A stretch of 64,000 nt of DNA, taken from assembly GCF_038396755.1 (NCBI RefSeq), contig NZ_CP149822.1, positions 806,001 to 870,000 of the forward strand, in the 5' to 3' direction. The notes under the pieces are model-generated. The model had not been told where the DNA came from. It searched no databases and was given only the letters and a program-made list of their open reading frames with translations. Positions 6,189-37,174 of this stretch are shown piece by piece. A program made the translations under genes and the position numbers. This stretch comes from Chitinophaga pollutisoli. Lineage in GTDB: Bacteria; Bacteroidota; Bacteroidia; Chitinophagales; Chitinophagaceae. Position 1 is the stretch's first letter. Each line of letters begins with the position of its first letter.

Positions 6189-6222
6189 TGGCGGCGGATG
6201 GCTTTTAGTGGCAGTATTTGGC
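6189..6222 (-). promoter_or_regulatory. phased GCCA-box operator upstream of mobC
   Basis: Four GCCA boxes on the minus strand (TGGC on plus at 6189, 6199, 6209, 6219) start exactly 10 bp apart. The 24-bp core, 6199-6222, matches the copy upstream of the recombinase operon (37151-37174) at 21 of 24 positions. It ends 73 bp before the mobC start. Regulatory function is inferred from repetition, orientation and position. Confidence 0.65.
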
Positions 6223-6267
6223 GTGTATAGAATAATTTATCTGATACTCCTGGAACTGCCTAAGTTA

Positions 6268-7581
6268 TTACTGTCTGCCCAGCCTTTTTCTTTTCTTCTT
6301 TTTCCTCATCCGGTTAGTAAAATCCTGTTCCTCGTAATCTTCGCCCTGGGCTTCGGGCAATAATCCACCTAACGCATCTATAAGTCCCAAGTCTTCATTG
6401 AGGTAGGCAGGCTGTTCTTCGTTCAGAAAATCAAAAAGCTCATGGGTTTCGTCTGACGCTTCCCCAATATTTTTACCAGTGGTTGGCAATGGCGTGTTGA
6501 TCCTTGCATCGTCGTCGTCCTGACGATGCTCTGCAAACTGCTCTTTCCACCAATCGTTAAAAACATTGGCTGAAAGATCTGTATCCAGTTGTGATCCATT
6601 CCAAACCATACGGCTTTCATGGTCTATGAATGTCATACCATAAATGCGCCCATCCCCGGTGCGTCGTACAACGGTGTTAATGCCTTGCTCCATCAATTGC
6701 TTTTTAAAATCGGCTTCGGTGCCGGTAAGGTGCATTGCCGCTTCAATGGTATTTTTGAGGATGGCTTTTGTGGGGTCAGTCTTCATTTTTTTCTTGGCCT
6801 CGATAAAGTGCTGTTGCAACGCCTCCCATCCGGCATCTTTACCAAAAAGGGATGATTTAAAAGGGTTGCTGGCTTTTTCTCCCTGTTCGTTCAGCGCAAA
6901 ATACACGATACCCTGCTTGGGCTGCCCGTGTAGTTCTCCTTTTACTTCTTCAGCGGTAATGTTAAATAGCGAAAGCAAGGCATTGTAAGCGCCCAGTGTT
7001 GTAAACTGGTAATACGTGGGCAGGTGCCGCACAACGGATGCTATCTGGCTTTTAATGTCACCGGCTTTATAATCCACCGGGCGGAATATCTGCTCGTTCC
7101 CTGTACGCTGCTTTTCGGTGGCAGGTATCAGGTTATAGTTTTGTTCCAATGCCCTGCAAGCGTCCATTGAACGTAGCTTCTCAAAGGTATCCGGTATCTT
7201 TTTACCATAGCGGTCCACGCAAGTCGATACAATATGGATATGTGTGCGTTCAATATCGGTATGCTTGAAAACCACATAAGGCTGATCGCCATACCCCATC
7301 CGATCCATGTAGTCTTTGGCAATCTGCTTAAAATTTTCGTCCGTTACCTTATCTCCCGGATCTGGGTTGAGCGATATATGCAATACAGGCTTTTCGGTGC
7401 GTTTATTGGCCATCAGATAAGGCTGGAAAGAGCGTAACAATTGCGCCACCGAAAAGCTGCCATCGGCTGTTTCGATAATCCTGTGCATGGTCAATATCTC
7501 GCCGTTTTCCTTATCTACTTTAAGCTGGTTGTAAGAAAGTGCACCCGTCATATTTACCCCGTGACCGATTTTTGCTATCAT
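6268..7581 (-). CDS. mobB: relaxase MobB (MOBP-like)
   Basis: 437-aa relaxase that nicks oriT and stays on the 5' end of the transferred strand. The N-terminal relaxase domain carries a candidate catalytic tyrosine in GALSYNQLK (Y17), LHISLNP, and the metal-binding histidines in FKHTDIERTHIHIVST (H107, H114, H116), the three-His signature of the family. The C-terminal third is charged and ends in KKKKRKRLGRQ. Its start overlaps the mobA stop (ATGA), so the two are coupled. The oriT candidate lies just upstream of mobA. Confidence 0.92.
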   Translation of the reverse strand: MIAKIGHGVNMTGALSYNQLKVDKENGEILTMHRIIETADGSFSVAQLLRSFQPYLMANKRTEKPVLHISLNPDPGDKVTDENFKQIAKDYMDRMGYGDQPYVVFKHTDIERTHIHIVSTCVDRYGKKIPDTFEKLRSMDACRALEQNYNLIPATEKQRTGNEQIFRPVDYKAGDIKSQIASVVRHLPTYYQFTTLGAYNALLSLFNITAEEVKGELHGQPKQGIVYFALNEQGEKASNPFKSSLFGKDAGWEALQQHFIEAKKKMKTDPTKAILKNTIEAAMHLTGTEADFKKQLMEQGINTVVRRTGDGRIYGMTFIDHESRMVWNGSQLDTDLSANVFNDWWKEQFAEHRQDDDDARINTPLPTTGKNIGEASDETHELFDFLNEEQPAYLNEDLGLIDALGGLLPEAQGEDYEEQDFTNRMRKKKKRKRLGRQ

Positions 7582-8066
7582 TTCCCGTCAATTTTATTGA
7601 GGTGATTAGCCTCAAATTCCATTGTCAGCTTCATCACTTCACGGCATAGCTTTGCCAGTTCTGCTGTTTGTTTTTCCAGTTTAAAGAGATAAGCGGCGGC
7701 CTTTTTTTCCGAAAAATTTCGGTAAAGGATCTTCACGACCTGGTTATAATTGACACCAACTGCCCTGAACTGCCCAAACAACGTGGTTAATCTGGTATAA
7801 TAATCCATTGCAGCCATATCTATGTTAACGCTCTTTACCGGTTTATCAAACAGTAAAGAGGTAACAAATTGTGCCTTGTTATCTGCTCCAGAGGCTTCAA
7901 AGAGCGAGAGGAATTTTGCATTTTCTTCATCCGTCAGACGAAATACATAACGGTGGATGCTTGGGTTTACTTTAGGGTTACGGCCACCTTTGTACTGTTT
8001 CTTTTTCTGCTGTTCATTCATCACTATATAATTTTTAAAACGAGCGTCAGCGAGCTGATCGTTCAT
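7578..8066 (-). CDS. mobA: relaxosome accessory protein MobA
   Basis: 162-aa basic protein with an N-terminal ribbon-helix-helix-like segment (IHRYVFRLTDEENAKFLSLFE, about residues 38-58) and a helical C-terminus, as in MobC-type relaxosome proteins that bind oriT and recruit the relaxase. In Bacteroidota ICEs it is named MobA and sits directly before mobB, as here (ATGA overlap). The ATG at 8066 gives MNDQLADARF; a second ATG 15 codons in (MNEQQKKKQY, 8021) is an equally good or better start because conservation seems to begin there. Confidence 0.85.
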   Translation of the reverse strand: MNDQLADARFKNYIVMNEQQKKKQYKGGRNPKVNPSIHRYVFRLTDEENAKFLSLFEASGADNKAQFVTSLLFDKPVKSVNIDMAAMDYYTRLTTLFGQFRAVGVNYNQVVKILYRNFSEKKAAAYLFKLEKQTAELAKLCREVMKLTMEFEANHLNKIDGK

Positions 8067-8118
8067 TAATCCAACAAAAACCCCGACTTCGGAGGGTGTT
8101 TTCCGGCCCCCTGCAAGG

Positions 8119-8245
8119 GCAAGTTGTTTTGAGGCACGGAACAGGTTCCGAGTGCCTCAAAACACAACTTGCTCTGTTCGGGTGAACAGAAAATCCGCCC
8201 TGCGGGACGGATTAGATAAAGCAGAAAAAAACGGCTGCGAGCCGT
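8119..8245. other. candidate oriT: four consecutive hairpins
   Basis: Between mobA and traA lie four inverted repeats in 127 bp: (i) 8119-8172, a 54-bp cruciform whose arms GCAAGTTG / CAACTTGC, TTTTGAGGCAC / GTGCCTCAAAA and GGAAC / GTTCC nest around a 2-nt loop with two 2-nt bulges; (ii) TCTGTTC / GAACAGA (8173-8190); (iii) AATCCGCCC / GGGaCGGATT (8192-8213); (iv) ACGGCT / AGCCGT (8231-8245). Transfer origins typically lie next to the relaxosome genes and carry such repeats. The nick site cannot be read from the sequence. Confidence 0.55.
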
Positions 8246-8350
8246 TCCACCTGTTACCTGTATATTGTAATGTTCTTTCCATTTACCCATAGCATTGGAG
8301 CTATTACAAAGTAAAGGCTGCTTTGTCAAAGCATTACAGTGCTCCACACT

Positions 8351-8384
8351 GCCAAAGACTGCCACTGAACGCCAATGACTACCA
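8351..8384 (+). promoter_or_regulatory. phased GCCA-box operator upstream of traA
   Basis: Boxes GCCA, GCCA, GCCA and ACCA begin at 8351, 8361, 8371 and 8381, exactly 10 bp apart; the core is 8351-8374. It is on the traA strand but 380 bp from the traA start, farther than the other four copies. The leader in between contains hairpins. It also lies next to the oriT candidate, so it could act on DNA processing as well as transcription. Confidence 0.6.
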
Positions 8385-8753
8385 CATTCTAAAATATAGC
8401 TGCCTGAGGTATTTTCTTTGTTTCAAAGTTATACAGGAGCACTTACAGAAAAAAGTGCGGAAAAGAAAAAAACAAAATGTATGTGCTGTTTCAAGCACAT
8501 ACAGAAAACAGGAAGAGAACACAGGTTTAAAAATGCAGGGGCGCAAAAGTATAAAGTTTTAAAACCATAAAAACGTAAAAGCAGCAATGTTTACAGAAAC
8601 AAGCCTTTACGGGTTTTCAGATTTAAGCAAAAGCATATAACAGGGAAACTGTAAAAAAACACAACGGTACAGCAACCCGGAAAAATGGTAAAGCAGAAAA
8701 GCGGCAGTACAACTGCACAATTTATCAAATGGACAATTTTAAATTTTAGAAAA
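8385..8753 (+). promoter_or_regulatory. A-rich leader of the traA operon with hairpins
   Basis: This gene-free stretch holds GCACTT / AAGTGC (8439-8458) and a perfect 10-bp inverted repeat TGTATGTGCT / AGCACATACA with a 6-nt loop (8478-8503), followed by about 250 bp very rich in A. A -7-like box (TTTTCTTTG) is near 8412. The hairpins could be operator or mRNA leader structures. No protein is supported here. Confidence 0.4.
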
Positions 8754-9521
8754 ATGGAAACAGTAAAAAAAACTTTAAAAATCAGCTTCTCCACACAAAA
8801 AGGCGGCGTGGGAAAATCAACCATAACAACCCTGCTTGCCAGCTTGCTCCATTACCGGCTCGGATTTAATATAGTGGTACTGGACTGCGATTTTCCCCAG
8901 CACAGCCTGAGCAAAATGAGGGAAAGGGATCTGAAGACCGTTATGCAGAACGATTATCACAAAAAAGCTGCAATGAAACAATTCCAGGCTATCAATAAGA
9001 AAGCCTATCCCGTTATCCGGTGCAAGGCAGATGAAGCGCTGGACAAAGCATTGGAGTATGTGCAGCAATCTGCGGCACACCCCGATATGATTTTTTTTGA
9101 CTTGCCGGGAACGGCAAACACAAAGGGCGTGCTGACAACGCTAAAAGCAATGGATTTCATTTTTTCCCCTATCACTGCGGACCGGTTTGTAGTGGAAAGT
9201 ACGCTGGGGTTTGCTAAAGCATTTCTCCAGCTCCCTGAAATTGAGAATGCCAATAAAGAGCAGGTATTCTGGTTGTTCTGGAACCAGGTGGACGGCAGGG
9301 AGAAAACGATGCTTTATGAGGCTTACCAAACGGTGATCGGACAGCTTGGCCTTTCCATTATGGATACAAGAATTATGGACAGCAAGCGCTTCCGTAAGGA
9401 AACGGACGATACGGGCAACTACATCTTCCGGTCAAGCCTGCTTGCCGCAGAGCCGGGCCTGCTGAAAATGACTAAAATGGATCTCTTTGTACAAGAGTTC
9501 TTGAAAATTGTTCATTCTTAA
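8754..9521 (+). CDS. traA: ParA-like ATPase TraA
   Basis: 255-aa ParA/MinD-type ATPase, first gene of the conjugation operon in Bacteroidota ICEs. The deviant Walker A motif KGGVGKST is at about residues 17-24, the VVLDCDFPQ motif follows near 45, and MIFFDLPGTANT is the Walker B/switch region. The family name TraA comes from CTnDOT; its exact role in transfer is unsettled, probably positioning or relaxosome support. The frame is open from 8685, but I chose ATG 8754 because the conserved domain starts right after it and an A-rich ribosome-loading stretch precedes it. Confidence 0.88.
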   Translation: METVKKTLKISFSTQKGGVGKSTITTLLASLLHYRLGFNIVVLDCDFPQHSLSKMRERDLKTVMQNDYHKKAAMKQFQAINKKAYPVIRCKADEALDKALEYVQQSAAHPDMIFFDLPGTANTKGVLTTLKAMDFIFSPITADRFVVESTLGFAKAFLQLPEIENANKEQVFWLFWNQVDGREKTMLYEAYQTVIGQLGLSIMDTRIMDSKRFRKETDDTGNYIFRSSLLAAEPGLLKMTKMDLFVQEFLKIVHS

Positions 9522-9533
9522 ATCAGTTGTGAT

Positions 9534-9938
9534 ATGGATACAGATAACATAAAGAAAGGATTTGAGAAACCCAACGTGGATGAGGATTACCTGATGAACA
9601 TTATGAGCGGCGATGAACCTGCTCCGGTAACAAAGGCTGGCAAGGATCACGCGGAGCCGAAAGAGCCTAAAGCCCGTGAAAAAACAAAGTCTGGTTCATC
9701 AAAGAAAATTGACTACGAAGATGTTTTCTTAACCAATCGTTACCCTTCCGGAAGAAATGGCAAAGTGGTTTATATCAGGCCGGAGTTTCATGAGCGGTTG
9801 CTGCGGATCGTTCAACTGGCAAGGGAGGATAAAACTACGCTCTATTCCTACATAGACAATATTCTCGAATACCATTTCAGGGAATTTGGCAACGAGATAA
9901 CGGATTATTTCAATGACAGGTATAAACCCATTTTATAG
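9534..9938 (+). CDS. DUF3408 protein (TraB-like), copy 1
   Basis: 134 aa; charged N-terminal half, then a DUF3408-type C-terminal domain (about residues 62-134) with VVYIRPEFHERLLRIVQ, LYSYIDNILEYHFREFG and an end NDRYKPIL. These small proteins follow traA in many Bacteroidota ICEs; some resemble ribbon-helix-helix DNA-binding proteins, but the role is not established. It starts 12 bp after traA and is the first of three paralogues in tandem. Confidence 0.75.
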   Translation: MDTDNIKKGFEKPNVDEDYLMNIMSGDEPAPVTKAGKDHAEPKEPKAREKTKSGSSKKIDYEDVFLTNRYPSGRNGKVVYIRPEFHERLLRIVQLAREDKTTLYSYIDNILEYHFREFGNEITDYFNDRYKPIL

Positions 9939-9951
9939 TAAAACAAAACCA

Positions 9952-10242
9952 ATGAAAAAGAATATTAAAAACGGAAAGCCCATGCAGGCAAATAATGGCT
10001 CTGTTAAAAAAGAAAGCTACGGAACCCAGTTCCTGAAACAGCACGCAATGGCGTGCCGGGGTGAGAAATCGATCTACATACGCCCTGAATACCATGAGCG
10101 TATCGTTAGGATTGTTCACGTCATCGGAGATGATAAAATCCCGTTGTATGCTTATCTGGACAATATACTCAAACATCATTTCGAGCAGTTCGAGAAGGCG
10201 ATTACAGAGGATTTTAATGAAAAGTTTAAACCCATTTTTTAA
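9952..10242 (+). CDS. DUF3408 protein, copy 2
   Basis: 96 aa from ATG 9952 (an upstream start at 9913 would overlap copy 1 and adds residues out of line with the family). It repeats the domain of its neighbours: SIYIRPEYHERIVRIVHVIG, LYAYLDNILKHHFEQFE and the ending NEKFKPIF. The 13-bp gap to copy 1 and 11-bp gap to copy 3 indicate one transcript. Function unknown; possibly a DNA-binding partner of TraA or the relaxosome. Confidence 0.75.
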   Translation: MKKNIKNGKPMQANNGSVKKESYGTQFLKQHAMACRGEKSIYIRPEYHERIVRIVHVIGDDKIPLYAYLDNILKHHFEQFEKAITEDFNEKFKPIF

Positions 10243-10253
10243 AATATTGGACC

Positions 10254-10526
10254 ATGAAAAAGACAAATCAAAAACAAAGGAACACGTTACGCATTGCCGA
10301 ATATCAGTTGGCATTCTTAACACCTACAGGTTTTTTGGCAAAAGACGGGAAGACGGTATATGTCAGCCCGGAGTTCCACGAAAAAATATCCCACATTGCA
10401 TTTATACTTGGTTCGGGGAAAATTAATATTGCTGATTATCTGCATAGTGTTCTGAAGCACCACTTCCCGGATTTTGGTCAGGAAATAAAAACCATTTATA
10501 ACGACAAGAACAAACCCATTTTTTAG
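10254..10526 (+). CDS. DUF3408 protein, copy 3
   Basis: 90 aa, the shortest of the three paralogues, almost only the conserved domain: TVYVSPEFHEKISHIAFILG, IADYLHSVLKHHFPDFG and the ending NDKNKPIF. It is followed after 2 bp by traD. The three copies share the layout YI(R/S)PE(F/Y)HE ... DN(I/V)L..HF ... KPI(L/F), which points to tandem duplication followed by divergence. Confidence 0.75.
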   Translation: MKKTNQKQRNTLRIAEYQLAFLTPTGFLAKDGKTVYVSPEFHEKISHIAFILGSGKINIADYLHSVLKHHFPDFGQEIKTIYNDKNKPIF

Positions 10527-10528
10527 TT

Positions 10529-11161
10529 ATGGAACTGCTGATTTTAATATGTCTGCTCATCGTCATTGTTCTGCTGGCGAAGGACAAAATCACCATAAAA
10601 AAAGTGGTGCGAAACAATCGGCAACAGCCGCCTTTAGATCCTGATTTACCGGAAATAATGGGCCAGCCAAAGCAGCATGTACGACACGCAGTGCCAAGTA
10701 ATGCCACCCAAAGTCAATTAGCTAAACCGAAGGTTACGGCTGATAATTTTGAAACAGAAACCAATGAAAAGGGTTTCGCAAAGGAAATTCCGCAGGAAGA
10801 GCTGGATGAAGTTTTTGGGGACGGCCCCAACCTTGAAGAAGAGGAGGAAGAATGGAATGGATATGGTTATCCGAACGGCGATGACGGTTTTGCCACGGGG
10901 GTTACCTTCGACGAACTGAGTACCGTGGGGGCCTTGTTACAGCAAGAAGTGTTGGAACCGGCCTTGCAGCAAAAAGCGGTGGATATAGTTCAAAGGATAC
11001 AAGGAACCGAACTATTCAGCCTTTTGGAAAACTCAATGGAAGGCGCTTCCCGAAAGATTGCAGCGTTATTGGACAGGAGCCTGCCTACAGGAATGGATTC
11101 CGGTTCTTCCGATTTGCGGAAAAATGATTTGAGTGACTTTGACATTGGGGATTTTGTCTGA
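10529..11161 (+). CDS. traD: conjugal transfer protein TraD
   Basis: 210 aa: one N-terminal membrane helix (residues 1-16, LLILICLLIVIVLLAK), a proline- and glutamate-rich linker with an acidic run near residue 105, and a C-terminal helical part (TFDELSTVGALLQQE...) ending GDFV. This is the usual TraD of Bacteroidota conjugative elements, whose biochemical role is unknown; it is not the F-plasmid coupling protein TraD. It is the last gene of the traA operon and converges with the RloC-like gene (18-bp gap). Confidence 0.7.
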   Translation: MELLILICLLIVIVLLAKDKITIKKVVRNNRQQPPLDPDLPEIMGQPKQHVRHAVPSNATQSQLAKPKVTADNFETETNEKGFAKEIPQEELDEVFGDGPNLEEEEEEWNGYGYPNGDDGFATGVTFDELSTVGALLQQEVLEPALQQKAVDIVQRIQGTELFSLLENSMEGASRKIAALLDRSLPTGMDSGSSDLRKNDLSDFDIGDFV

Positions 11162-11179
11162 AAAGGCAGCTCCCTTTTG

Positions 11180-13801
11180 TTATTGTTCCGTGGCAGGCTT
11201 TTTAAATTTTTTGACTTTTGCTCTGATAGCCTCAAACCGCTGAATTTCCTCGTTAAGGTGATTGGGTTCCGGCTTTTTGTAAGCATATTTATCACTATGT
11301 GTATGCCCTTCCATATAGCGGCAACATTGCCCGAAACTATCTTGCAGTTCATCTATCAGCCCGCTATCGAAAAAAACAGAATTGAGCGCTTCAATGCTTA
11401 CTCGCTCATTAAACCGCTGCACTACATTTTTAAACAGATCATTTATTACAAGCACTTCATAACTGGTTCTGAGGGACGCAAATCCTGTTTTCAGCAGAAA
11501 CTCTCTTTGGGCGGGAGGACAGTCATCCTTCTTCGCTTCGTTGTAGTATTTTTTGGCAGGTTCAGCGCTCCTGTATTCTTTTTCATACGATGGGGCATTA
11601 TTCAGCCATATCTGGCCAGGATTGCCGCTTCTGTTTTCAATCCAGTGGCATACATGAGTTGCTTTGATATCGGCGCAGTGCCCAATGAGTGACGAAACAA
11701 AAACAAGATCATGTGTAAATATGATCGTTTGTTTGTTCAGGCTTTCTTCAACAAGCCTTTTTGCGATTTCACTTTTTCGGGTCTCATCCAGCGAGGTTAC
11801 AGGGTCATCGAATATTATTCCCCGGTTTATCTCCGAAAGCCTCATTTCAGCAATAAAATCCGCGATTGCTATAACTTTTTGTTCTCCTTCACTTAGTACC
11901 GCGTTAGGATTATTACCTTTCAGTTTTAACTGCCTGTAGGATTTTCCGGCGGAGCCTGTGTGACTGATCTCAATGCCAAAATTCCCATTCATCTTTTTAC
12001 ATTCGTCATTAAAGGCATCGATATATTTCTGGCTGAAATATTTATCGGACAATGCTTTTTCAGCATAAGTGGTATCTGTCTTGGCCTTTCGGAAATTTGC
12101 TTTTCCTGCCTTCGCAATCCAATCCTGGTTTTCCAAAAACGTTTCAAACTTTGCAAGGTGCGTATTAAACTTTTCCTTATGAGCCAGGTAAGTCTTTTTT
12201 GCATTGAGCTGCGCTAACTCCTTGCTTTGCTCATTCTCCCGCAGAGAGGCGATGACTGTGTCAATATAATTACCAATGGTTTTATAGTGTTCCAATGATG
12301 TCAGGACTTCAGTATGATCAACAATCTTTTTAGCCTTGACATCTGATATTATGGTTTCACAAAGCGTTTTTTGTTGGGCAAGTGCATCTTTTAATGATTG
12401 CAGCGCTTCAGGATACCGCTCCGTCAGCCAGTCGGTAAGCGTGTTGTTTTCCGGAAACAGATCAAAGACAAATTTTCCCAAGCCGGTTTCCAATTTGTTG
12501 AGGATCTCCTGCGATTTGTTGAAATTTTCTTCTGCAACACTCTTGATAAATGACCAATAATTAGCAATCAGGTTGATAGCATCTGGCGATAATGGTTGCT
12601 GGCAAAGCAGACAGCTATCGCCCTTCTTGGGATAGGTATGCTGCTCAGGATCTTGCATCCTGGCAAAAGTTTCCGCTGCAATTATGAAGTTTTTCCATTG
12701 CTCTGATCCTACCCCTAATATGGTTTCCGTTTTAAAACTTTCAACGCCCTCTGCTTTTGTAATGCTTTCTTTATCTAAACAATCCTGTATAGCGTTCCTT
12801 ATTTTTTTCAGATAATCTATGCCAAAGTGTTGATTCAGCTTTTCAACAGCCAGCTTGTTCTCTGCCAATAATTTTTTTATCGTTAATAGTTGGGATATCT
12901 GCTTCTCTTTATCTTTTGAAGCGAGTAAAAGCTCGTCATAGGTTTTGTCGATTTTTACCTTTTCAGCTTTGTCGATTTCGGTAAAGGGGGCAAATTTCTG
13001 AAGGTCTGCTGCCTTTGATTTACTGCTCAACGCCTGTACAAAAGATTTTATTTCAGATTCGCCATCAAACAGGTCTGCCAGATCCTGTGCGGTACTACCT
13101 GTCTTTTTTAAGGAGAGGTCAGCATTTAGTTTCTGCTCTACCATTGCAAGCGCAGCGGTATAATCAGCAAAGAAAGCAAGGCCGGACGGCCTGAACTCAA
13201 ATTCGTTTCGCTGGTCAAGGTGGCGAATGACACTCTTGCCATCAAAAACGGAAAATTGCGTGAACTCCGCTTTCCCCTTGTCGTTCAGTGTTAATGATAT
13301 CGAATCGGTACCAGAGGTAAAACTAAAGTTTGCGCTTACAGCTTTATGGCCCGTATCAATGTGAATATTCTTTAAAATTTCTTCTTTCGATTTAGAATAA
13401 AAAACGAGCTTAAACAATCTGGTGTAACCAGATTTTCCCGAACCGTTTGCACCATAAATAATGGTAAGATGATTGCCAAATTCTATTGTCTGCCCTTCCA
13501 TTAACGCATTAACGCCTTCTACATTTTGAACTTTTGCAAACAGAAGATCACTTTTGTGATTCCCGGATTTTTGAACATCGTATTTGATCACAAGTGTCTG
13601 GCGTTCACTTTTTGTTTTTAATCCCAATTCTTCTAACAAGAAGAAATACGCGGCAGTGGTAACTTCTTCAGAGATTACTGATCCGGATAGCCATTTCTCC
13701 GCCATATACTTCGACCAATAGGGTAATCCATCAGCAAATACTTTGATTTCGGCCTCTAAGGTTTCGGGCAGCTTCTTGCTCAGTTTGGTTTCCTGCGCCA
13801 T
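11180..13801 (-). CDS. RloC/PrrC-like AAA ATPase with HEPN ribonuclease domain
   Basis: 873 aa with the architecture of the RloC family. Walker A GANGSGKS (117-124); long coiled-coil middle with a zinc-hook motif CLLC (C397, C400), as in RloC and Rad50 but not PrrC; ABC signature LSEGEQ (636-641); Walker B GIIFDDP (661-667); switch His in IIFTHD (H697). The C-terminal domain carries R778-x3-E782 (the R..E spacing of the PrrC active site) and R828-x4-H833, a HEPN RX4-6H motif. Family members cleave tRNA anticodons on phage infection or DNA stress. It lies alone on the minus strand between two ICE operons, like a cargo defence gene. tRNase activity is inferred, not shown. Confidence 0.75.
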   Translation of the reverse strand: MAQETKLSKKLPETLEAEIKVFADGLPYWSKYMAEKWLSGSVISEEVTTAAYFFLLEELGLKTKSERQTLVIKYDVQKSGNHKSDLLFAKVQNVEGVNALMEGQTIEFGNHLTIIYGANGSGKSGYTRLFKLVFYSKSKEEILKNIHIDTGHKAVSANFSFTSGTDSISLTLNDKGKAEFTQFSVFDGKSVIRHLDQRNEFEFRPSGLAFFADYTAALAMVEQKLNADLSLKKTGSTAQDLADLFDGESEIKSFVQALSSKSKAADLQKFAPFTEIDKAEKVKIDKTYDELLLASKDKEKQISQLLTIKKLLAENKLAVEKLNQHFGIDYLKKIRNAIQDCLDKESITKAEGVESFKTETILGVGSEQWKNFIIAAETFARMQDPEQHTYPKKGDSCLLCQQPLSPDAINLIANYWSFIKSVAEENFNKSQEILNKLETGLGKFVFDLFPENNTLTDWLTERYPEALQSLKDALAQQKTLCETIISDVKAKKIVDHTEVLTSLEHYKTIGNYIDTVIASLRENEQSKELAQLNAKKTYLAHKEKFNTHLAKFETFLENQDWIAKAGKANFRKAKTDTTYAEKALSDKYFSQKYIDAFNDECKKMNGNFGIEISHTGSAGKSYRQLKLKGNNPNAVLSEGEQKVIAIADFIAEMRLSEINRGIIFDDPVTSLDETRKSEIAKRLVEESLNKQTIIFTHDLVFVSSLIGHCADIKATHVCHWIENRSGNPGQIWLNNAPSYEKEYRSAEPAKKYYNEAKKDDCPPAQREFLLKTGFASLRTSYEVLVINDLFKNVVQRFNERVSIEALNSVFFDSGLIDELQDSFGQCCRYMEGHTHSDKYAYKKPEPNHLNEEIQRFEAIRAKVKKFKKPATEQ

Positions 13802-13928
13802 TAATTTAGATTTTAGATAAGGTTCGTTATCGTTTGATTCTGTTGCAACTTGTAGTTAGACCCTACTAAAATATCAAAAAAAGATGAAAACAGTAGTGAC
13901 TGTTTGCTGATCGCTAAGCGCCTCAAAC

Positions 13929-13962
13929 GCCTCGGGCTGCCAAACAGTTCCCCTGAAAGACA
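13929..13962 (+). promoter_or_regulatory. phased GCCA-box operator upstream of the 14040 operon
   Basis: Boxes GCCT, GCCA, TCCC and GACA begin at 13929, 13939, 13949 and 13959; core 13939-13962. It ends 78 bp before the start codon at 14040, and the sequence GACATTTG (one mismatch to TAnnTTTG) lies between, near 13993. Two boxes are degenerate, but the sequence around them (CCTGAAAGACA) matches the copy upstream of traE. Confidence 0.55.
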
Positions 13963-14039
13963 TTCCGGTAGCATTTCTTCACTCAGTCCTGACATTTGAC
14001 CGGCAGCGAAATTATTGGTTCCGGTTAAATATTACAATT

Positions 14040-15158
14040 ATGATCAAAAAAGACGATCTCGACTATATATTCGAGGAATATAAAGGACATACCATCGCCA
14101 GCCACAGGAACAACGTTGCTGAAAAGGACATCAATAACCTCATTATTGTTTATCGTACAGAAGACTTTCCCGAATACGGGTTTATAGTTGGTCTTGATGA
14201 TTCCAAGCTGTCCGGGCGCAGGAAATCGTTTCCTCATAATATGGAAGACGCAAAAAGCTATATTGATTGGGTGGTTGACGTGCGCCAGCAAAAAGAAGCG
14301 GGAAAAACAGAGCGGGAAAAACCAACGGTGTTTATTGAAGGAACGGAATTTATCGTTGATGGACTCAAAGATGAATTGCGCGAAAAATCCAACCCGAGAA
14401 ATGTGATGCACATAAAGGAAATGCAATATGTTGGTAATGGAAACGGATATACTTTTCATTATGATGTAAGTACCAAAAATTTCCCTACCAATGAAAGAAG
14501 AAGGGAACTGGCCTTTACAGATTCAACAGATCTGCAATTAGTGCAAATACCTGAGTTAACCAGTATTGACCCCATAGGCGTGGCGCAAAAGTATAACCTT
14601 AGTTTAGAGGAGGTAAAAGGAAAGATCGACTTTGGGCTTACCATAGAGAAGGGCAGTCTGCTGGACCTGCGCTGGAATAAGGGCGTGTTGCCTACACTGG
14701 ATATTGAAGGGCATACCTTTTATGTGGATATACAGATGGATATGCTCCGCCCAAAAGATGATTTCCGTTCCAAAGGCATCGTGTTCTCCGAGATTGAGAA
14801 GTTCTATGATCATGATACACAACGCTACTTTATCCCGTACCACCCGAAAGCACATGAGTTCCGGGACATAGATTACGAATCGATCACGCAAATTCCCAAA
14901 GACCTAATGGTTGTCTCCTTCCCGAACGAAGCCATACTTGACCCTGTTGGGTGGAACAAGAAGCATGGCTTTGACCTGATCGATGAAATGAAAGAACCGG
15001 GATTACGGATGAACTTTAAAGCCGTTCCTGAAACCTGGGAACATATTTATGTACCTGAAAGGATCAAAGAGAATCTGGATAAGCTGCAAAAGGAGTCGAA
15101 AAAGGAAAAACCGGATCGTACGGTTGACAAATCCCGAAAACGCGGGCGCAAGATGTAG
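14040..15158 (+). CDS. unknown ICE protein with IEGTEF-type repeat, paralogue 1
   Basis: 372 aa, soluble, no signal peptide. After a ~90-residue N-terminal part, it holds one ~250-residue unit: PTVFIEGTEFIVD, IPELTSIDPIGVAQKY, LPTLDIEGHTFYVDIQMDMLRPKDDF, a Y(F/L)IPY(H/D)PK-HEFR segment and a basic tail ending RKRGRKM. The same unit recurs in the next gene, so this is a small repeat family. Related unnamed proteins occur on Bacteroidota ICEs to my knowledge, but no function is known to me. It is preceded by a phased GCCA operator and shares a transcript with the gene at 15185. Confidence 0.6.
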   Translation: MIKKDDLDYIFEEYKGHTIASHRNNVAEKDINNLIIVYRTEDFPEYGFIVGLDDSKLSGRRKSFPHNMEDAKSYIDWVVDVRQQKEAGKTEREKPTVFIEGTEFIVDGLKDELREKSNPRNVMHIKEMQYVGNGNGYTFHYDVSTKNFPTNERRRELAFTDSTDLQLVQIPELTSIDPIGVAQKYNLSLEEVKGKIDFGLTIEKGSLLDLRWNKGVLPTLDIEGHTFYVDIQMDMLRPKDDFRSKGIVFSEIEKFYDHDTQRYFIPYHPKAHEFRDIDYESITQIPKDLMVVSFPNEAILDPVGWNKKHGFDLIDEMKEPGLRMNFKAVPETWEHIYVPERIKENLDKLQKESKKEKPDRTVDKSRKRGRKM

Positions 15159-16412
15159 CAATTGATGTGTTTAAAAACAAAAAAATGAAAAATGAAAAAC
15201 CAACGGTGATCATTGAGGGCACGGAGTTTCTCTTTGACATTGACAAAATAGTACTTTCAGAAAAGGCAGATCCCGATAACCGGATCTACTTTTCATCTAT
15301 GCGGAATTATGAGACGCATTATGAGTTTGATTACAGCAGGGTTTCCAAAAAATTCCATGTTTTGCATTCACCTTATCTGCGGAATAAACCTGTTGTTTTA
15401 GGAAAACCCAAAACGGCACCCGAAGGTGATCCGCTTATTACCGTTAAGATACCCTGCATTGGTGAGATTGATCCGGACGGCATGTGCCGCAAATACGGGT
15501 GCACATTGAAAGACATTTCGGAAAAAACCGATTTTGAGATCATGGTAGACCAGGACATTTTTGGCAGAAGAATGGACGGCGTTCCTGTAACCATAGACCT
15601 CGCCGGGAAAAGATTTGAAATTGATGTAGCTGGCAACGCATTGCGTCCGCAGGATGGCAACGGGGAAACCATTTACCTGAGCGCGCTGTATGATTACTTT
15701 TCCATAGACCGTGAATCGTATCGCCTGTTTTACAACACATCAACCTCCAGGGTTGAAGACCCGTTCAGGGATGGTACTATTGACAAAAACACTGACCGTT
15801 TGATCCTGGAGGTTCCCAGTCTATCCGACCTTGACCCCATCGGCACCAATTTGAGGTATGGGAATGATCCACGGTATGGATTGATGTACAGGGCACTTAC
15901 CATGCATTATGATCCGCAGACCATTCCTTATGAAGAATATATCAACACCTTGAAAAGCCAGCACCACCCAGCATTTCACAACCTGAATGCCAACCCATCA
16001 AAACAGCAACTGCCTACAGTGGATATAGAAGGAACAGCCTTCGTTGTTGATGTGGGCAAATTTGAACTTCGGGAAAAAGCCAATGAAGGCAATGTAATTT
16101 CCTTTACAGATATGACGGATTTCGGTGAGGGGTATTCTTTTGAATACAACAGGAAAGCTAAGAATATTCCCGATGTGTTTGAGAAAAGCGATGTATTGAT
16201 CGAGATACCGGAATTTGTGGGGCTTGATCCCGTAGGTATGGCACAAAAGTATGGCCTCACCGCGGATGAGGTAAAGGCTAAAACTGATTTTGAATTCATG
16301 GTGGATCAGTATGCTTTTGACCTGCGGTTGAATAAAGGAAGGTTACCTACTGTTGATATTGCCGGTCATCTTTTTTATGTGGACATCCGTATGGATATGC
16401 TGCGGCCAAAAG

Positions 16413-16426
16413 ATGATTTTTTATCA
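16413..16426 (+). repeat. target site duplication, left copy
   Basis: ATGATTTTTTATCA here is repeated at 17842-17855 on the other side of the IS. Fourteen matching bases is the maximum; the true duplication may be slightly shorter. IS4-family elements usually make duplications of about 8-13 bp. Confidence 0.85.
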
Positions 16427-17841
16427 CTATTGTCCGACTAAAGTAATCGAATCCGGGGTATAAAAAGGGCAGTTCCGAAGAACCACCCAGATTAGTTAAG
16501 TTTGGTTTACCACAACAAAACTTCACTAATGGGTGAAATTAAAAAAATTCCCGGACAGCCGATACTTTCTCAGATTTTAGAGCTTATTCCCGGGCAACTT
16601 ATTCATGCTGCCAACCGCAAACACAAAGCTAACCGATACTATAAAACCCTTTCCTTCCGGGTCCACCTGGTGAGTATGCTCTATGGGGTATTCAGCTACT
16701 GTAACGGGCTACGGGAGCTGTGTGAAGGGCTGCTCGCCTGTGAAGGTAAGCTCTCCCATTTAGGACTGGATAAGGCGCCCGCACGCAGTACTTTATCCGA
16801 TGCCAACAGCAATCGCCACTATCAGGTCTTTGAAACGATTTACTACGGATTGCTCAGGCGGTACCATAGCTTTATCTCGGACAGCCGGTTAAAAGGATTG
16901 AGTATCAGAAATTTGAAAGTAATAGACAGTACTACGATTCAATTATTCAGTGAAATCCTTCGAGGTGTGGGCCGCAACCGGCTGGATGGTGCCCGAAAAA
17001 AGGAGGCATCAAAGTACATGCGCTCATGGATGCCTTCAGCGGGGTAACCGAGTTTATCCGGATTACAGAAGCCCGGGAGCATGACCGCAAGTTTCTCTAC
17101 CACCTAAAACTGGTGCCCAACAGTTGGATTGTTTTTGATAAAGCGTACACTACCTACAACCAGTTCGCCAAATGGGCGGATCAGAAAATCTGGTTTGTAA
17201 CCCGCGAGCGTGGCAATGCTGATTTTCATGTAACCAAGGTACTGGTGGATAAAACCCGGCAGCGAAAATCGAAGGGTGTATTAAAAGAACAACTGGTAAC
17301 AGTGGGCGTAAAACAAAATGGCACTGTTGTTCAACGACTGAAGCTACGTAGGATAACCTATCTCTCTGAAGAAGGTAAAACCTATGTGTTCATCACCAAT
17401 AATATTACACTGCCGGCCACTCAGATCGCAACGATTTACAAGAATCGCTGGATGATTGAATTACTGTTCAAGCAAATCAAGCAAAACTTTCCGTTGCGCT
17501 ACTTCTGGGGTGAAAGCCCAAACGCAATTAAGATCCAGGTGTATTGTGTGCTGATCGCACAACTATTGATGGTGGTTATCCGGAAAAAAGCAGCTACAAA
17601 AAAATCCTTTGCGAATATGATAACCGTCATCCGGCTGCATTTAACCAGCTATGTGAATCTGCTGGAGTTCATAAAAGACACCTACAAAGCTTGGAGAAAA
17701 ACACACAATGCATATTTTGCATTTACTACCTGACGGATACCCGGGGTACTACCCCTGAAAATGAAACAAGCAAATAATCAACTGAAACCAACGCTGGATC
17801 TACATTACAGCGCAGGAATTGCTGTTTTTAACCGGACAAGA
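16427..17841 (+). mobile_element. IS4-family insertion sequence
   Basis: About 1415 bp bounded by a direct 14-bp target duplication. The ends form imperfect inverted repeats: left TATTGTCCGACTAAA from 16428, right (complement) TCTTGTCCGGTTAAA from 17841, 12 of 15 matching. It encodes one DDE transposase in two overlapping frames. It lies inside the second IEGTEF-repeat gene, and the exact ends are uncertain by 1-2 bp. Confidence 0.88.
16529..17733 (+). CDS. IS4-family DDE transposase, two frames joined by -1 shift
   Basis: The first frame (16529 to about 17047) carries IDSTTIQLF with the first Asp; the second (from 17002) carries VFDKAYTTY with the second Asp and YKNRWMIELLFKQIK, an exact IS4 Y-(2)-R-(3)-E-(6)-K signature with the Glu. 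Together they give ~400 aa, normal for the family. The frames meet at A AAA AAG (16996-17002), in phase as a -1 slippery heptamer; slipping yields RKKGGIKVHALMDAF, the expected sequence. A 7-bp stem (AGGCATC / GATGCCT) follows at once. It is either programmed frameshifting or the loss of one A from a run of seven. Confidence 0.8.
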
Positions 17842-17855
17842 ATGATTTTTTATCA
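17842..17855 (+). repeat. target site duplication, right copy
   Basis: Second copy of ATGATTTTTTATCA, directly after the right end of the IS; the interrupted reading frame resumes here (TCA then AATGGGATAGTG). Confidence 0.85.
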
Positions 17856-18290
17856 AATGGGATAGTGTTCGATGAAATCGATCATTATTTTTCTGAAGAC
17901 AGGAACGCCTACCTGATACCCTACGATCCGAAGAAACATGAATTTAGGGAACTGGATTACGATAAGATCACTGAGTTCCCAAAAGACCTGATAGCGGTTC
18001 AGTTCCCGTTCCAGAAAGACCTTGATCCTATTGGGTGGAACAGGCACGGTGGCTGGGATATAAAAGACGATTTAAAAAAGATCGGCGTAAAATGCCATTT
18101 CACCGCCCAAACAATTCCGTGGCAGCAAACATACTTGCCGGAAATTATAAAGGAAAATCTGAAAAGGCAACAAAAGCAGGTGAAAAAAGAAAAGCCGGTG
18201 ATCAAATCGCCAGTAAATAAATCGCAAAAAGGTAAAGGTCGAAAGATGTAGATCGACTAAAAAACTGCTGCTTATTGTACTTCATTTTCA

Positions 18291-18324
18291 AGTGTCAGGA
18301 TTGTAGAATCCTGACACTTTTTTT
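18291..18324 (+). terminator. intrinsic terminator before traE
   Basis: A perfect 12-bp stem AGTGTCAGGATT / AATCCTGACACT with a 4-nt loop, followed by a T7 run. It closes the operon of the two IEGTEF-repeat genes, so traE must be transcribed from its own promoter. Confidence 0.9.
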
Positions 18325-18347
18325 ATGCCCTGAAACCTCATTACAAA

Positions 18348-18381
18348 GCCACATACTGCCAAGTAATTCCACTGAAAGACA
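18348..18381 (+). promoter_or_regulatory. phased GCCA-box operator upstream of traE
   Basis: Boxes GCCA, GCCA, TCCA and GACA begin at 18348, 18358, 18368 and 18378, exactly 10 bp apart; core 18358-18381. It ends 50 bp before the traE start and follows an intrinsic terminator, so it sits where the promoter of the transfer operon has to be. CATTTTTG (one mismatch to the -7 consensus) lies downstream, near 18410. Confidence 0.65.
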
Positions 18382-18430
18382 CTTCATTAGAGTGCTTCGA
18401 TTTCCATGACATTTTTGTTCCGAAGCCCGC

Positions 18431-18775
18431 ATGAAGCGGGAAAGTAGTAACAAAATAATTCAGTTCAAACATGGAAAAGCAAAGAAAAAAGTGTGGCTGA
18501 CAGGCGCTGCATTGCTGTCAGCATTTAGTGTATTCGCTCAAGGAAATGGAGGTGCGGGCATCAACGAGGCCACACAAATGGTGACCTCTTATTTTGACCC
18601 GGCTACCAAATTAATTTATGCCATTGGAGCCGTCGTTGGGTTAATCGGAGGTGTTAAGGTGTACAACAAATTCAGCAGTGGCGACCCTGACACGAGCAAG
18701 ACAGCGGCAAGCTGGTTCGGTGCGTGCATCTTCCTTATTGTGGCTGCTACCATCCTTCGTTCATTCTTCCTTTAA
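18431..18775 (+). CDS. traE: TraE, VirB2-like pilin candidate (DUF4134)
   Basis: 114 aa. A basic N-terminus is followed by a signal-like hydrophobic stretch ending SVFAQG (about residue 37), then two hydrophobic helices (about 60-80 and 95-113) around GGVKVYNKFSSGDPDTSKTA. This is the DUF4134 protein TraE of Bacteroidota conjugative transposons, the likely VirB2-type pilus subunit of the inner membrane. First gene of the transfer operon. The start gives an unusually long basic leader, but no in-frame later ATG fits. Confidence 0.88.
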   Translation: MKRESSNKIIQFKHGKAKKKVWLTGAALLSAFSVFAQGNGGAGINEATQMVTSYFDPATKLIYAIGAVVGLIGGVKVYNKFSSGDPDTSKTAASWFGACIFLIVAATILRSFFL

Positions 18776-18786
18776 TCCGCCGCCCT

Positions 18787-19119
18787 ATGAGTAATTACAA
18801 TATCAATAAAGGCATCGGAAGAACAGTTGAGTTCAACGGATTGAAAGCGCAGTACCTGTTCATTTTTGCAGGTGGTTTGCTAGGTGTGCTGATCCTTGTG
18901 ATGGTGATGTACATGGTTGGGGTGAACTCTTATATCTGCCTGGTCATTGGAGCCGGTGGTGCATCGCTCATTATCTGGCAAACATTTGCGCTCAATGGTA
19001 AGTACGGTGAACACGGATTAATGAAGCTCGGTGCAAGAAAAAGACACCCGAAGTTCATCGTCTGTCGTAAGCCTGTTCATCGCTACCTGAAGTTAACCCA
19101 TAAATCCAGTGCCGTATGA
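18787..19119 (+). CDS. traF: TraF, VirB3-like membrane protein (DUF4133)
   Basis: 110 aa from ATG 18787 (MSNYNINKGIGRTVEFNGLK; the frame is open upstream but conservation starts here). Two adjacent transmembrane helices (about residues 25-65) are followed by a basic tail. It matches the DUF4133 protein TraF that precedes the TraG ATPase in all such operons and is comparable to VirB3. It overlaps the traG start by 4 bp. Confidence 0.87.
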   Translation: MSNYNINKGIGRTVEFNGLKAQYLFIFAGGLLGVLILVMVMYMVGVNSYICLVIGAGGASLIIWQTFALNGKYGEHGLMKLGARKRHPKFIVCRKPVHRYLKLTHKSSAV

Positions 19120-33587: not shown

Positions 33588-33620
33588 TGCTTGGTATTTT
33601 GAATGTTGTACAATTTGATT

Positions 33621-33959: not shown

Positions 33960-34002
33960 GTGTTTGCGTTTTTAATTTTGATAATTAGAACTCTGCCTTG
34001 CG

Positions 34003-34386: not shown

Positions 34387-34428
34387 TGCTGTATTTTTTA
34401 AAATGTTACTAATTATGAATTGTTTCCG

Positions 34429-34626: not shown

Positions 34627-34629
34627 ATC

Positions 34630-34803
34630 TCACTGTTTTATATTGTTACCAACCTTTTTTATTTTCACAATGGCTCTTTGGGGGCATCTTTCTGCTGCCA
34701 TTATCTGTTCGATTACTCCTTGTTCTCCGTTCATTGATACAACCCTAATTCGAATTTTGCCATTGTCGTGTTTTACGGTTGCTATAAAGGTTTCGAGTAC
34801 CAT
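34630..34803 (-). CDS. small hypothetical protein, 57 aa
   Basis: ATG 34803 gives MVLETFIATVKHDNGKIRIRVVSMNG..., a basic protein ending KIKKVGNNIKQ. The frame also opens at GTG 34830, but the ATG is the better start. No family recognised. It is located 53 bp after the DUF932 gene. Confidence 0.5.
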   Translation of the reverse strand: MVLETFIATVKHDNGKIRIRVVSMNGEQGVIEQIMAAERCPQRAIVKIKKVGNNIKQ

Positions 34804-34856
34804 GTCTGTAAGTTTTTTAAGGGCGACCACCTTTTCAGGCGGTCGCCCGTGGTTAC

Positions 34857-35930
34857 TTAATTGAGTTCAAAAGCGTCTGCCCCGATTTTCTCGAATGAGG
34901 TACACAGTTCAAAGGCTTTTTGGGTCTTTAACTGTGCAGTACCGCCCAATACAATGCTCTGTAATTTGGCTTCGCTGTCTTTGTAGTTCCTTACGTTCTG
35001 ATAGTAGCCTGTCACGGCATTGTACGCTCCGAACAAAGTACCTTTGGTGGTTTCCATCTGCTGTGTATCGCTTATCATTGCATAGGCAAAGGCATCATCA
35101 ACGGTATTTTTGAACACAGTGGAAACTTCTTCCTCTGCACCTTTTTTGAGCAGGTCTAGGGTTTCCTTGTTGGGGCAAAGTGCAAGCTGTATCAGTTTCT
35201 TTACTTCGCTATCCGTTACCCTTACTTTTGTCCAGTTGTTGAAAATGTCCTGTAACTGGTTGCTGAGGGTGTTTGCCAGTCCCATAACCTTGTGCGCATC
35301 CTCTAAGCGTTGTTTAGCGCCTGATGTATGCTTAATACGTACCACGTTGCTCATGTTGCGAAGCGAAGCGTTAAGGGTATTTTGGCAAACGATACGGATG
35401 GGCGTAAACGCTGCCGTAATACTTCCGCTTCCATCGTGGGAGGTTGTCAGGAAGATGTATTTTTCTGTAATATCATCACCGTTGCCAACTCGTATATAGT
35501 CGGGCAGTTTTGCCGTAATAAATATGCGCTCACCGTTGCCCAATGCACCTGCTGTTTCATACAGGATGCCGTCCCCACCGCCTACAATGGCATCAAAGAA
35601 ATTGAACGCTTCGCGGTTCTGCACGATATGGTAATCCTTGCCTACAACGCCTAACACTGCATTGTTGTCGCTTCGTATGTTGGCAAAGTAGTTGGGAACG
35701 TCCAGTTCGCCGTATCCTACTTCGATACCCTGTGAAGTTTCTATGATGTTTGAGCTTTTGGTGAACAGCGGACTTTTGATGACTTCGTAATCAAGCCCTG
35801 CATATCGGATTGCCTCTTCACTTGTGGGATAGTCCTGTACGATCTGCCCCAAGCCGTGCCATGCTTTTTCCTGAACGCTGAAGAAACTGTATTTACCTGT
35901 TCTGCTGTTGAAATTGAGATTATGTGCCAT
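34857..35930 (-). CDS. DUF932 domain-containing protein
   Basis: 357 aa. EKAWHGLGQIVQDYPTSEEAIRYAGLDYEV (about residues 21-50), YHIVQNREAFNFFDAIVG (about 100-117), ERIFITAKLP, and SHDGSGSITAAFTPIRIVCQNTL are the conserved blocks of the DUF932 phage/plasmid-like protein family. These proteins are common on plasmids, phages and ICEs; function unknown, sometimes suggested to act in DNA metabolism. It follows ssb (44-bp gap). Confidence 0.9.
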   Translation of the reverse strand: MAHNLNFNSRTGKYSFFSVQEKAWHGLGQIVQDYPTSEEAIRYAGLDYEVIKSPLFTKSSNIIETSQGIEVGYGELDVPNYFANIRSDNNAVLGVVGKDYHIVQNREAFNFFDAIVGGGDGILYETAGALGNGERIFITAKLPDYIRVGNGDDITEKYIFLTTSHDGSGSITAAFTPIRIVCQNTLNASLRNMSNVVRIKHTSGAKQRLEDAHKVMGLANTLSNQLQDIFNNWTKVRVTDSEVKKLIQLALCPNKETLDLLKKGAEEEVSTVFKNTVDDAFAYAMISDTQQMETTKGTLFGAYNAVTGYYQNVRNYKDSEAKLQSIVLGGTAQLKTQKAFELCTSFEKIGADAFELN

Positions 35931-35974
35931 GATGTTTTAAATTTTGAATTGTTAAAAAAATGATTGATTGCTGT

Positions 35975-36355
35975 TTAAAATGGTAGGTCGTCTTCCTGTG
36001 TATTGCCTGTGTTCAGTTCCGTAGTAGCCTGTGGCGTTTCGCTTCTTCTACCTCCTGCAAGCGGTTTGATGTTGGAGGTATGGAAGTTTAGCCCTGCTTT
36101 TGGCTCTCCGTCCTTGCTTACCCACGCCCTTGTACTTACCCTGCCTGTGAGTTCCACCAGTAGCCCTTTGGTGAGCATCTTCACCACGTTCGGGGTTATC
36201 CAGTATGAGCAGTCGAAGAAGGCGGTTTGCTCAACTCGCTCGCCCTGTTTGTTCTTGTAGCTGTCGTTTACCGCTACGGAAAAGTTTACTACCTGTTTGC
36301 CGTTTGACGTTGTGCGTACTTCCGCATCCCTTGTCAGTCTTCCAGTGATGTTCAT
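35975..36355 (-). CDS. ssb: single-stranded DNA-binding protein
   Basis: 126 aa with one OB fold: MNITGRLTRDAEVRTTSNGKQVVNFSVAVND, then QTAFFDCSYW, typical of bacterial SSB. The short disordered tail ends DDLPF, the acidic tip that recruits partner proteins. An ICE-borne SSB would coat the transferred strand in the recipient or support element replication. First gene of the minus-strand PRTRC operon; the palindromic region lies just upstream. Confidence 0.93.
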   Translation of the reverse strand: MNITGRLTRDAEVRTTSNGKQVVNFSVAVNDSYKNKQGERVEQTAFFDCSYWITPNVVKMLTKGLLVELTGRVSTRAWVSKDGEPKAGLNFHTSNIKPLAGGRRSETPQATTELNTGNTQEDDLPF

Positions 36356-36448
36356 GATTGTTGATTTTTAGCGTTATTGAATTTGTTCTTGTCTGATTTT
36401 TTTTGATTTATTCGGCAATGAGAGGAGGTGCTGTTTCGTTTCACTTTG

Positions 36449-36742
36449 TTGCCGTTTCCAATGCTGTATTTTTTCACTTCTGACATTTTTTTTATTCGTG
36501 TAAAGAGCCGGAGTATGCTATGTTTCGTTTCACGAGCAGGAAAGGTTAGTGTTTAGGAGGCACAAGGTTTTGGGAAAAAATACTACCCAAGGGGTGGAGA
36601 TTTTTTTCCAAACTTGCACGACCTTTTGCCCCCGTTAAGAACACGGTCATACCTTTGCTCTTGAAACGAAACAAAAACAGCATACTGGCTCTTGAATAAA
36701 AAAATCCGTGGAAGCAGTGAAAAAGGCATTAGGAAACGGCCT
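36449..36742. repeat. large imperfect palindrome upstream of ssb
   Basis: Two arms of ~140-150 bp align in reverse complement with gaps, centred near 36,590-36,600. Matching blocks from outside in: GCCGTTTCC (36451) / GGAAACGGC (36732); GAGCC (36505) / GGCTC (36687); TATGCT (36514) / AGCATA (36679); GTTTCGTTTCA (36522) / TGAAACGAAAC (36662); GGAAAAAAT (36573) / ATTTTTTTCC (36600); ACCC (36585) / GGGT (36592). A third copy of TGTTTCGTTTCAC lies outside at 36432. It fills part of an 887-bp gene-poor gap between ssb and the recombinase module. Origin of replication, recombination site or foldback element are all possible. Confidence 0.6.
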
Positions 36743-37140
36743 GGAGTGTATCAAAACAACACAACCAATTCGTTAAATTTTCTAACCCTTTTTTTAAAGT
36801 TTGTGGCTGTAAAAGCCACACAACAGAGGGGAGATATTTGAAAATGAAGGAGCGTTTTTATAGAAAGGTATTATCGCTTCAAAATGGAAAATATGGAATG
36901 ATGGGTAGTTGTTGCAATCGTATGCTGCTTTCCCTGGTTTTAATGAAGAAGTCTCGCAATTGATCGTGAAATTGATTTCAATTCTTTGTAAAGGAATAGG
37001 AAAGACAATAAGGCTAAAATCTGAACGCAGGCAACAAACCATAAAATGAGGGTAATGCTTATTTGATATAAATACCCAATTGAAGTGCTTCCTAAGAACC
37101 AGGCTAATCCATAAAACCGCGTTTTACAGTTCTATGAGGC

Positions 37141-37174
37141 GTCCCGGATAGCCAAATACTTCCACTCAATGCCA
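37141..37174 (+). promoter_or_regulatory. phased GCCA-box operator upstream of the recombinase operon
   Basis: Boxes GTCC, GCCA, TCCA and GCCA at 37141, 37151, 37161 and 37171, each 10 bp apart; core 37151-37174, ending 69 bp before the 52-aa gene that leads the recombinase operon. Nearly identical (21/24) to the mobC copy on the other strand. Confidence 0.65.

Follow-up and report, generated by a model that had tools for sequence, protein, structure and literature searches.

The window, a 64,000-nucleotide stretch of the Chitinophaga pollutisoli genome (C1:806001-870000 of 6.08 Mb), carries mobilization and transfer genes of an integrative and conjugative element (ICE) together with six arrays of TGCCA-like boxes whose starts lie 10 bp apart, and arrays of this kind recur before the same genes in related ICEs, at preferred distances of 27, 28 or 38 bp from a Bacteroidota-type -7 promoter element. 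Sequence comparison suggests that one small DNA-binding protein probably switches on the whole element; with slightly better than even confidence, the arrays would be operators of activator-dependent promoters bound by a winged-helix protein of the ICE, most likely Xis2d, encoded behind rteC. Bacteroidota ICEs carry genes between many species, and most of what is known about their transfer control comes, to our knowledge, from CTnDOT. With a sharply phased operator spaced constantly from the -7 element, the notion of transfer activation by excisionases becomes a promoter code that can be tested.

The original prediction, made from the letters of the window, had placed five 24-bp cores before mobC, traA, the 14040 operon, traE and the recombinase operon. 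All five were verified in coordinates and strand, each lies on the strand of the gene downstream, and the mobC and recombinase copies are indeed identical at 21 of 24 bases; as a total, five was too low, since a sixth array lies inside a traD-like open reading frame (ORF). Each core consists of three boxes in a single orientation, and some arrays have further in-phase boxes. The distance from core to start codon is 49 bp for traE, 68 bp for the small ORF before the recombinase, 72 bp for mobC and 77 bp for 14040, in line with the spacing claimed for four arrays, and 310 bp for traA. The arrays are as follows, with scores from a position weight matrix (PWM) that was rebuilt later than the five-site PWM described below:

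6199-6223, minus strand: array before mobC, the type IV coupling protein (T4CP) gene (4129-6126, minus), PWM 36.4
8350-8374, plus strand: array upstream of traA (8685-9521, plus), within the mob-tra intergenic region, PWM 38.2
10692-10716, plus strand: sixth array, within the traD-like ORF 10529-11161, PWM 26.4, kept in relatives
13938-13962, plus strand: array before orf14040 (14040-15158, plus), PWM 29.4
18357-18381, plus strand: array before traE (18431-18775, plus), with one further box upstream, PWM 29.5
37150-37174, plus strand: array ahead of a small ORF (at 37243) and the serine recombinase gene 37398-38867, PWM 33.5

Protein constraint poorly explains the traD array, because 10 is not a multiple of 3 and successive boxes fall in different codon phases. 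A putative terminator upstream of traE was recognized by eye.

An origin by chance or as a simple repeat was ruled out by shuffles, leave-one-out tests and reversed-pattern controls. The first PWM, 25 bp long and built from the five sites, scored these sites at 31.6-33.4, against maxima of 12.4-16.5 in five Markov shuffles of the window, and every held-out site ranked 5th or 6th among all window positions. At a PWM score of at least 15.5, no array was found in either flank of the window or in the PRTRC/ssb operon, the latter as had been observed originally. A weak array-like site at 39064-39088 (plus; 14.1 by the five-site PWM, under the later threshold) lies just 5' of a small serine-recombinase-like ORF (39096-39512).

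In the 6.08-Mb genome, a degenerate pattern with at most two mismatches gave 12 matches and its reversed control none: six in the window, two to its left (781995 and 787566), three at 1.38 Mb and one at 4.92 Mb. Each match has mobile-element surroundings. With three mismatches allowed, the pattern became unspecific (15 matches versus 14 in the reversed control). As a negative control, eight stretches of the same genome (L130-L134, L112, L113 and L017, where L numbers denote fetched loci and G numbers genomes; about 137 kb) contained no site at a PWM score of at least 13. Left of the window, locus L016 (772-790 kb) shows the order rteC, a 128-aa HTH_17 protein, an array, DUF4099 and DUF3945 genes, an exc-like topoisomerase gene, a second array and a DUF1896 gene; the first array overlaps the stop codon of the HTH_17 gene (genome 781688-781969), which was named xis2d by its position, and the second precedes the DUF1896 gene. 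The same order returns at 4.92 Mb (L019), with an additional xis2c-like gene that is absent from L016. A tyrosine integrase gene with an adjoining HTH_17 ORF lies at 757 kb; L016, the integrase region and the window may belong to one ICE.

The arrays keep a quantized distance to a promoter-like element. The -7 consensus of Bacteroidota is TAnnTTTG, and the -33 element of sigma-ABfr promoters is poorly defined (PMC7366714). The offset was taken from the three-box core to the -7 start, so that 38 is one turn more than 27-28. Across 68 arrays, -7 matches of at least 5/6 fell at offset 28 in 22 arrays, 38 in 14 and 27 in 11, and at most two fell at every other offset. When 91 arrays were surveyed by class, the best offset was 27, 28 or 38 in 7/7 classes with n of at least 7, with 13 of the 91 arrays lacking an assigned gene and five single-array classes standing outside the seven:

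traD-internal class: offset 27, n=16
traE class: offset 28, n=12
exc class: offset 28, n=9
traA class: offset 38, n=9
DUF1896 class: offset 38, n=7
helix-turn-helix (HTH) pair class: offset 38, n=7
mobC class: offset 38, n=13, with a weak -7 element (mean 3.46/6)

An extra in-phase box stands downstream in the 38-bp classes (traA 9/9, mobC 69%, DUF1896 57%, HTH pair 29%) and upstream in the traE (75%) and exc (89%) classes, and the one-box shift of the array is accompanied by a one-turn shift of the -7 element. This 10-bp-quantized distance lends independent support to the one-turn phasing of the boxes. In the own genome, 13 of 14 arrays have a -7 match of at least 4/6 at 27, 28 or 38 (three of the 13 tied with another offset), the exception being the L018 array at 10741. 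The putative elements in the window are:

6153-6160, minus strand: -7 of the mobC array, TAAATTCA, offset 38, 4/6, best of 52 offsets
8413-8420, plus strand: -7 of the traA array, TTTCTTTG, offset 38, 5/6, best of 52 offsets
10744-10751, plus strand: -7 of the traD-internal array, TAATTTTG, offset 27, a perfect 6/6, best of 52 offsets
13991-13998, plus strand: -7 of the 14040 array, GACATTTG, offset 28, 5/6, best of 52 offsets
18410-18417, plus strand: -7 of the traE array, CATTTTTG, offset 28, 5/6, best of 52 offsets
37203-37210, plus strand: -7 of the recombinase array, TAATTTAA, offset 28, 4/6, tied with three other offsets

Named Bacteroidales mob-tra loci were scored for four boxes 27, 28, 37 or 38 bp from TWnnTTTG. 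Eighty were among those listed with MobA, and six with less than 400 bp upstream of mobA were dropped; 62 of the remaining 74 scored at least 11, against 0/74 at each of five shifted offset sets. These loci are redundant, with 53 distinct upstream sequences, of which 29 scored at least 11. The chance figure for the spacing, about 1e-4, assumes independent classes and was set up after the data had been seen. No TTTG-like -33 element was evident by eye in the composition just after the core of the 68 arrays. Because of the fixed spacing to a -7-like element, the arrays are regarded as probable activator sites, and these elements would be used as promoters.

The arrays are retained at orthologous positions. 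Loci fetched for their motif matches (Set 1, L051-L064 among them), whose counts are thereby biased upward, showed an array before traA in 11/11 loci with traA and mobA, within traD in 11/11, before mobC in 11/11 and before traE in 7/7. Set 2, drawn from three other families, was fetched by rteC (L098-L111) or relaxase (L165-L180) and not by the motif. At thresholds of 15.5 and 13, it contained arrays before traA in 5/7 loci (not L171, L105), within traD in 6/7 and before traE in 6/7 (not L171 in either case), before mobC in 5/7 (not L168, L171) and behind xis2d in 7/10 (not L105, L106, L107; L104 ends before DUF4099). Orthologous ICE promoters thus keep the arrays, as the original prediction required, also in loci picked without the motif. 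Behind the xis2d gene of G157 (L270), no array was found at PWM 14. By PWM, an array precedes traA in one of five more distant Bacteroidales-type ICEs (L172; not L173, L178, L179, L180; the count leaves out L175/L176 and L177) and traE in 0/6. The box sequence drifts (TGCCA; GCCA/GCAA; GGACA by eye in L173 and L175/L176) and the spacing stays constant.

Where relatives with a tyrosine integrase show paired small HTH_17 genes near the integrase end, another array lies ahead of the pair (9/9 loci: L184, L265-L269, L271, L272 and L275, the last scoring only 14.3), taking the place of the array before the serine recombinases of the window. This second pair may perhaps encode the true excisionases of those integrases. 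In G123, two near-identical traE-type arrays (L052 1312 and 2074, minus) lie about 760 bp apart before traE, which suggests a local duplication.

The arrays also travel with the element in its family. The genes of the window relevant to this comparison, and to the binders weighed below, were recognized by family matches:

7578-8066, minus strand: mobA (PF19514, NCBIfam Bacteroid_MobA)
6268-7581, minus strand: mobB relaxase gene (PF03432)
9534-10526, plus strand: three DUF3408 genes, rival binder candidates

A pattern scan of 195 family genomes gave 32 matches in 13 genomes, with none in the reversed control. All 10 genomes with MobA (PF19514) were motif-positive, against 3/185 without it (Fisher 1.7e-14), and 27 of the 32 matches sit in these 10. 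The motif is rare in family genomes without MobA; an equal frequency in unrelated genomes had been named in the original prediction as a result that would count against it. No ICE gene was recognized in the fetched stretches around the remaining five matches (G060, G094, G162; L062, L065-L067, L114), which were set aside as unrelated, although the 68 arrays of the first -7 survey include L062 and L065-L067, and the 91 of the class survey include L062. In G162, boxes of TGCCACGGAA/TGCCACTGAA type stand in phase at L062 9109 (minus) and L067 175 (plus); with no recognized ICE gene in the fetched stretches, they are perhaps unrelated. Eight of the nine family genomes with a strong Xis2d match were pattern-positive; in the ninth, G103, the pattern had overlooked an array of five boxes located behind xis2d.

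Co-control of relaxosome, transfer and excision genes by a single factor, as first proposed, is supported by the comparison, and the regulon reading is well supported; calling the factor unknown was somewhat too strong, because excisionase-type regulators of CTnDOT are a direct precedent. Xis2d of CTnDOT is reportedly found at the mob-tra intergenic region. Xis2d, a small winged-helix protein encoded by the element and carrying an HTH_17 domain, has a strong match in 14 of the 16 genomes with ICE-associated arrays. Its AlphaFold model (pLDDT 83.1, pTM 0.55, 11 sequences) combines a winged HTH with a long helix at the N terminus. NCBIfam excisionase models match it only below their cut-offs, and a PDB sequence search returned no match under E 0.1. 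Operators of the excisionase type consist of direct repeats in head-to-tail order, spaced by one helical turn (PMC7498355), RdfS governs both excision and transfer of its ICE and switches on further recombination directionality factor (RDF) genes (PMC11963761), and CTnDOT excisionases activate transfer genes (PMC9956884). The activation of RDF genes by RdfS resembles the arrays before the HTH pair.

As the binder, Xis2d is the most likely candidate and the least certain part of the mechanism, and several observations weigh against it. G028 and G096 have arrays and no detected Xis2d, assembly gaps being possible; the second ICE of G285 (L106, L171) has xis2d and no arrays by PWM, nor any convincing box by eye; near the 757-kb tyrosine integrase (L130, L132), no array reaches PWM 13, the att sites and element ends there being unlocated; the -7 element of the mobC class is weak; and Xis2d of CTnDOT is said to act on a dyad, not on direct repeats. 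Moreover, in an alignment of xis promoters from 11 loci, the presumed RteC sites contain GCCAATTGGC, so that, for this ICE type, GCCAA is common to the box and the RteC half-site.

This shared GCCAA is the ground for the improbable alternative that RteC binds the same activator-dependent promoters, recognizing its half-sites in inverted arrangement before xis and in direct arrangement within the arrays. RteC adjoins every xis2d inspected, which would agree with it. However, two other ICE types of G417 have palindromes before xis2c (ACCAACTTGGT; CCACAG/CTGTGG) unlike their own array boxes (GGACA; GCCA), and 8/11 xis promoters are without an array at a PWM score of at least 9. The palindromes before xis genes are RteC sites by assumption, and the presumed RteC operators appear to change between ICE types. 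Conserved GCCAATTGGC palindromes were seen before the xis genes at L016 9341-9611 and its equivalents, with ACCAACTTGGT instead in L174.

It is distinctly improbable that the DUF3408 proteins, whose genes neighbour that of the ParA-like TraA, bind the boxes as operators or as a centromere-like partition site. These proteins presumably resemble ribbon-helix-helix proteins, a DUF3408 ORF occurs in 11/11 Set 1 loci with traA and mobA, G028 and G096 included, and a ParA with a small DNA-binding protein on repeat arrays is a known partition design. In contrast, the DUF3408 of L056 is of the a-type alone and that of L064 of the b-type alone (67% and 39% identical to the first copy of the window), and the traD arrays of these two loci differ at 1/25 bases; a DUF3408a with 66% identity persists in the second ICE of G285 without arrays by PWM; promoter geometry is present in every large array class; and L018 has arrays without DUF3408 or TraA nearby. 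No DUF3408 match under E 0.33 was found in a PDB sequence search.

That another factor (Xis2c, the product of some other ICE gene or a protein of the host) binds, or that the arrays are repressor sites, is unlikely, though the arrays of G028 and G096 would be accommodated by it. Xis2c as sole binder was set aside, as a strong match (E 1e-50) exists in only 8/16 array genomes. A host factor predicts arrays outside ICEs, yet only the three of 185 MobA-less family genomes have a match, and the constant end 28 bp upstream of the -7 element would suit an activator better than a repressor.

For binding by Xis2d, the following pathway is proposed. RteC, which turns on xis2d in CTnDOT, would act upstream in this ICE too and switch on xis2d. 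The Xis2d-like HTH_17 protein would then occupy between three and five TGCCA(N5) boxes head to tail, with one box for each turn and all on the same face of the helix. The short filament formed in this way would end on the promoter side about 28 bp before the -7 element, near the expected -33 position, and would recruit RNA polymerase. The targets would be exc/topoisomerase, DUF1896, mobC, traA, the internal traD promoter, traE, the 14040 operon and the recombinases, the last being replaced in relatives by the second pair of excisionase-like genes.

Such control would be of a known kind, excisionase-coupled ICE control, in a variant with an unusually explicit promoter code. The gene order of L016 and L019 matches the CTnDOT order of rteC, xis2c, xis2d, orf3 and exc, apart from the xis2c missing in L016; mob and tra are divergent in both systems, and the array in the mob-tra intergenic region agrees by position here and in named Bacteroidales ICEs. 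Beyond the site reported at the mob-tra region of CTnDOT, arrays here also lie before exc, DUF1896, mobC, traE, 14040 and the recombinases and inside traD, and in the CTnDOT-like L181, only about 20 bp, free of any array, separate xis2d from DUF4099. Head-to-tail one-turn direct repeats are likewise the operators of phage 186 Apl, lambda Xis and Pukovnik Xis, and Apl is both an excisionase and a transcription regulator (PMC7498355); Apl represses, whereas the geometry here suggests activation, and no array was found near the 757-kb integrase at PWM 13. RdfS of ICEMlSymR7A, which excision and conjugation require, is an RDF of the winged-helix type that oligomerizes and has a helix at its N terminus (PMC11963761); it reportedly has no apparent consensus motif, in contrast to the sharp phased motif here. 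In titles and abstract openings found by full-text literature searches, with most subscription papers outside coverage, such arrays were not described.

Arrays also occur in loci resembling mobilizable elements. L018 (1.374-1.393 Mb) has four arrays, one before a serine recombinase gene, together with a frameshifted-looking MobA and a relaxase gene. Its cargo at 4547-18981 comprises an IetAS-like pair, an AbiEii-like gene, type II/IIG methyltransferases and a PDC-M19A gene, and two of the arrays face the orf120/IetA-like and AbiEii-like genes. Within these 19 kb, whose borders are not fixed, nothing matched RteC, Xis2d, DUF3408 or tra proteins, hinting that an L018-type element may borrow the activator of a resident ICE. 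SGI1 is a mobilizable element that responds to the IncC plasmid activator AcaCD; it carries activator sites of its conjugative helper, as L018 may, although activator and phylum differ. A weaker second case is L275 (G099), with MobA, tyrosine integrases, the HTH pair and an array scoring 14.3.

The code predicts an ICE regulon from sequence as well as transcript start positions, flags mobilizable elements that possibly answer to a resident ICE, and offers an activator geometry for sigma-ABfr promoters. A wider generalization, held with somewhat less than even confidence, is a phylum-wide ICE code in which a winged-helix filament of excisionase type would replace -33 recognition at transfer and excision promoters with one-turn precision, operons would be split and rewired by added phased arrays, even intragenic ones, and mobilizable elements with anti-phage defence genes would have acquired arrays for induction in trans by a resident ICE.

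Two insertions were observed among the transfer genes of the window. An 873-aa AAA protein (11180-13801, minus), matching the PADLOC candidate defence family PDC-S06 (1.6e-122), is encoded between the traD-like gene and the 14040 operon, and insertion sequence (IS) transposase pieces in two overlapping ORFs (16502-17733, plus; DUF4372, DDE_Tnp_1) lie between the 14040 operon and traE.

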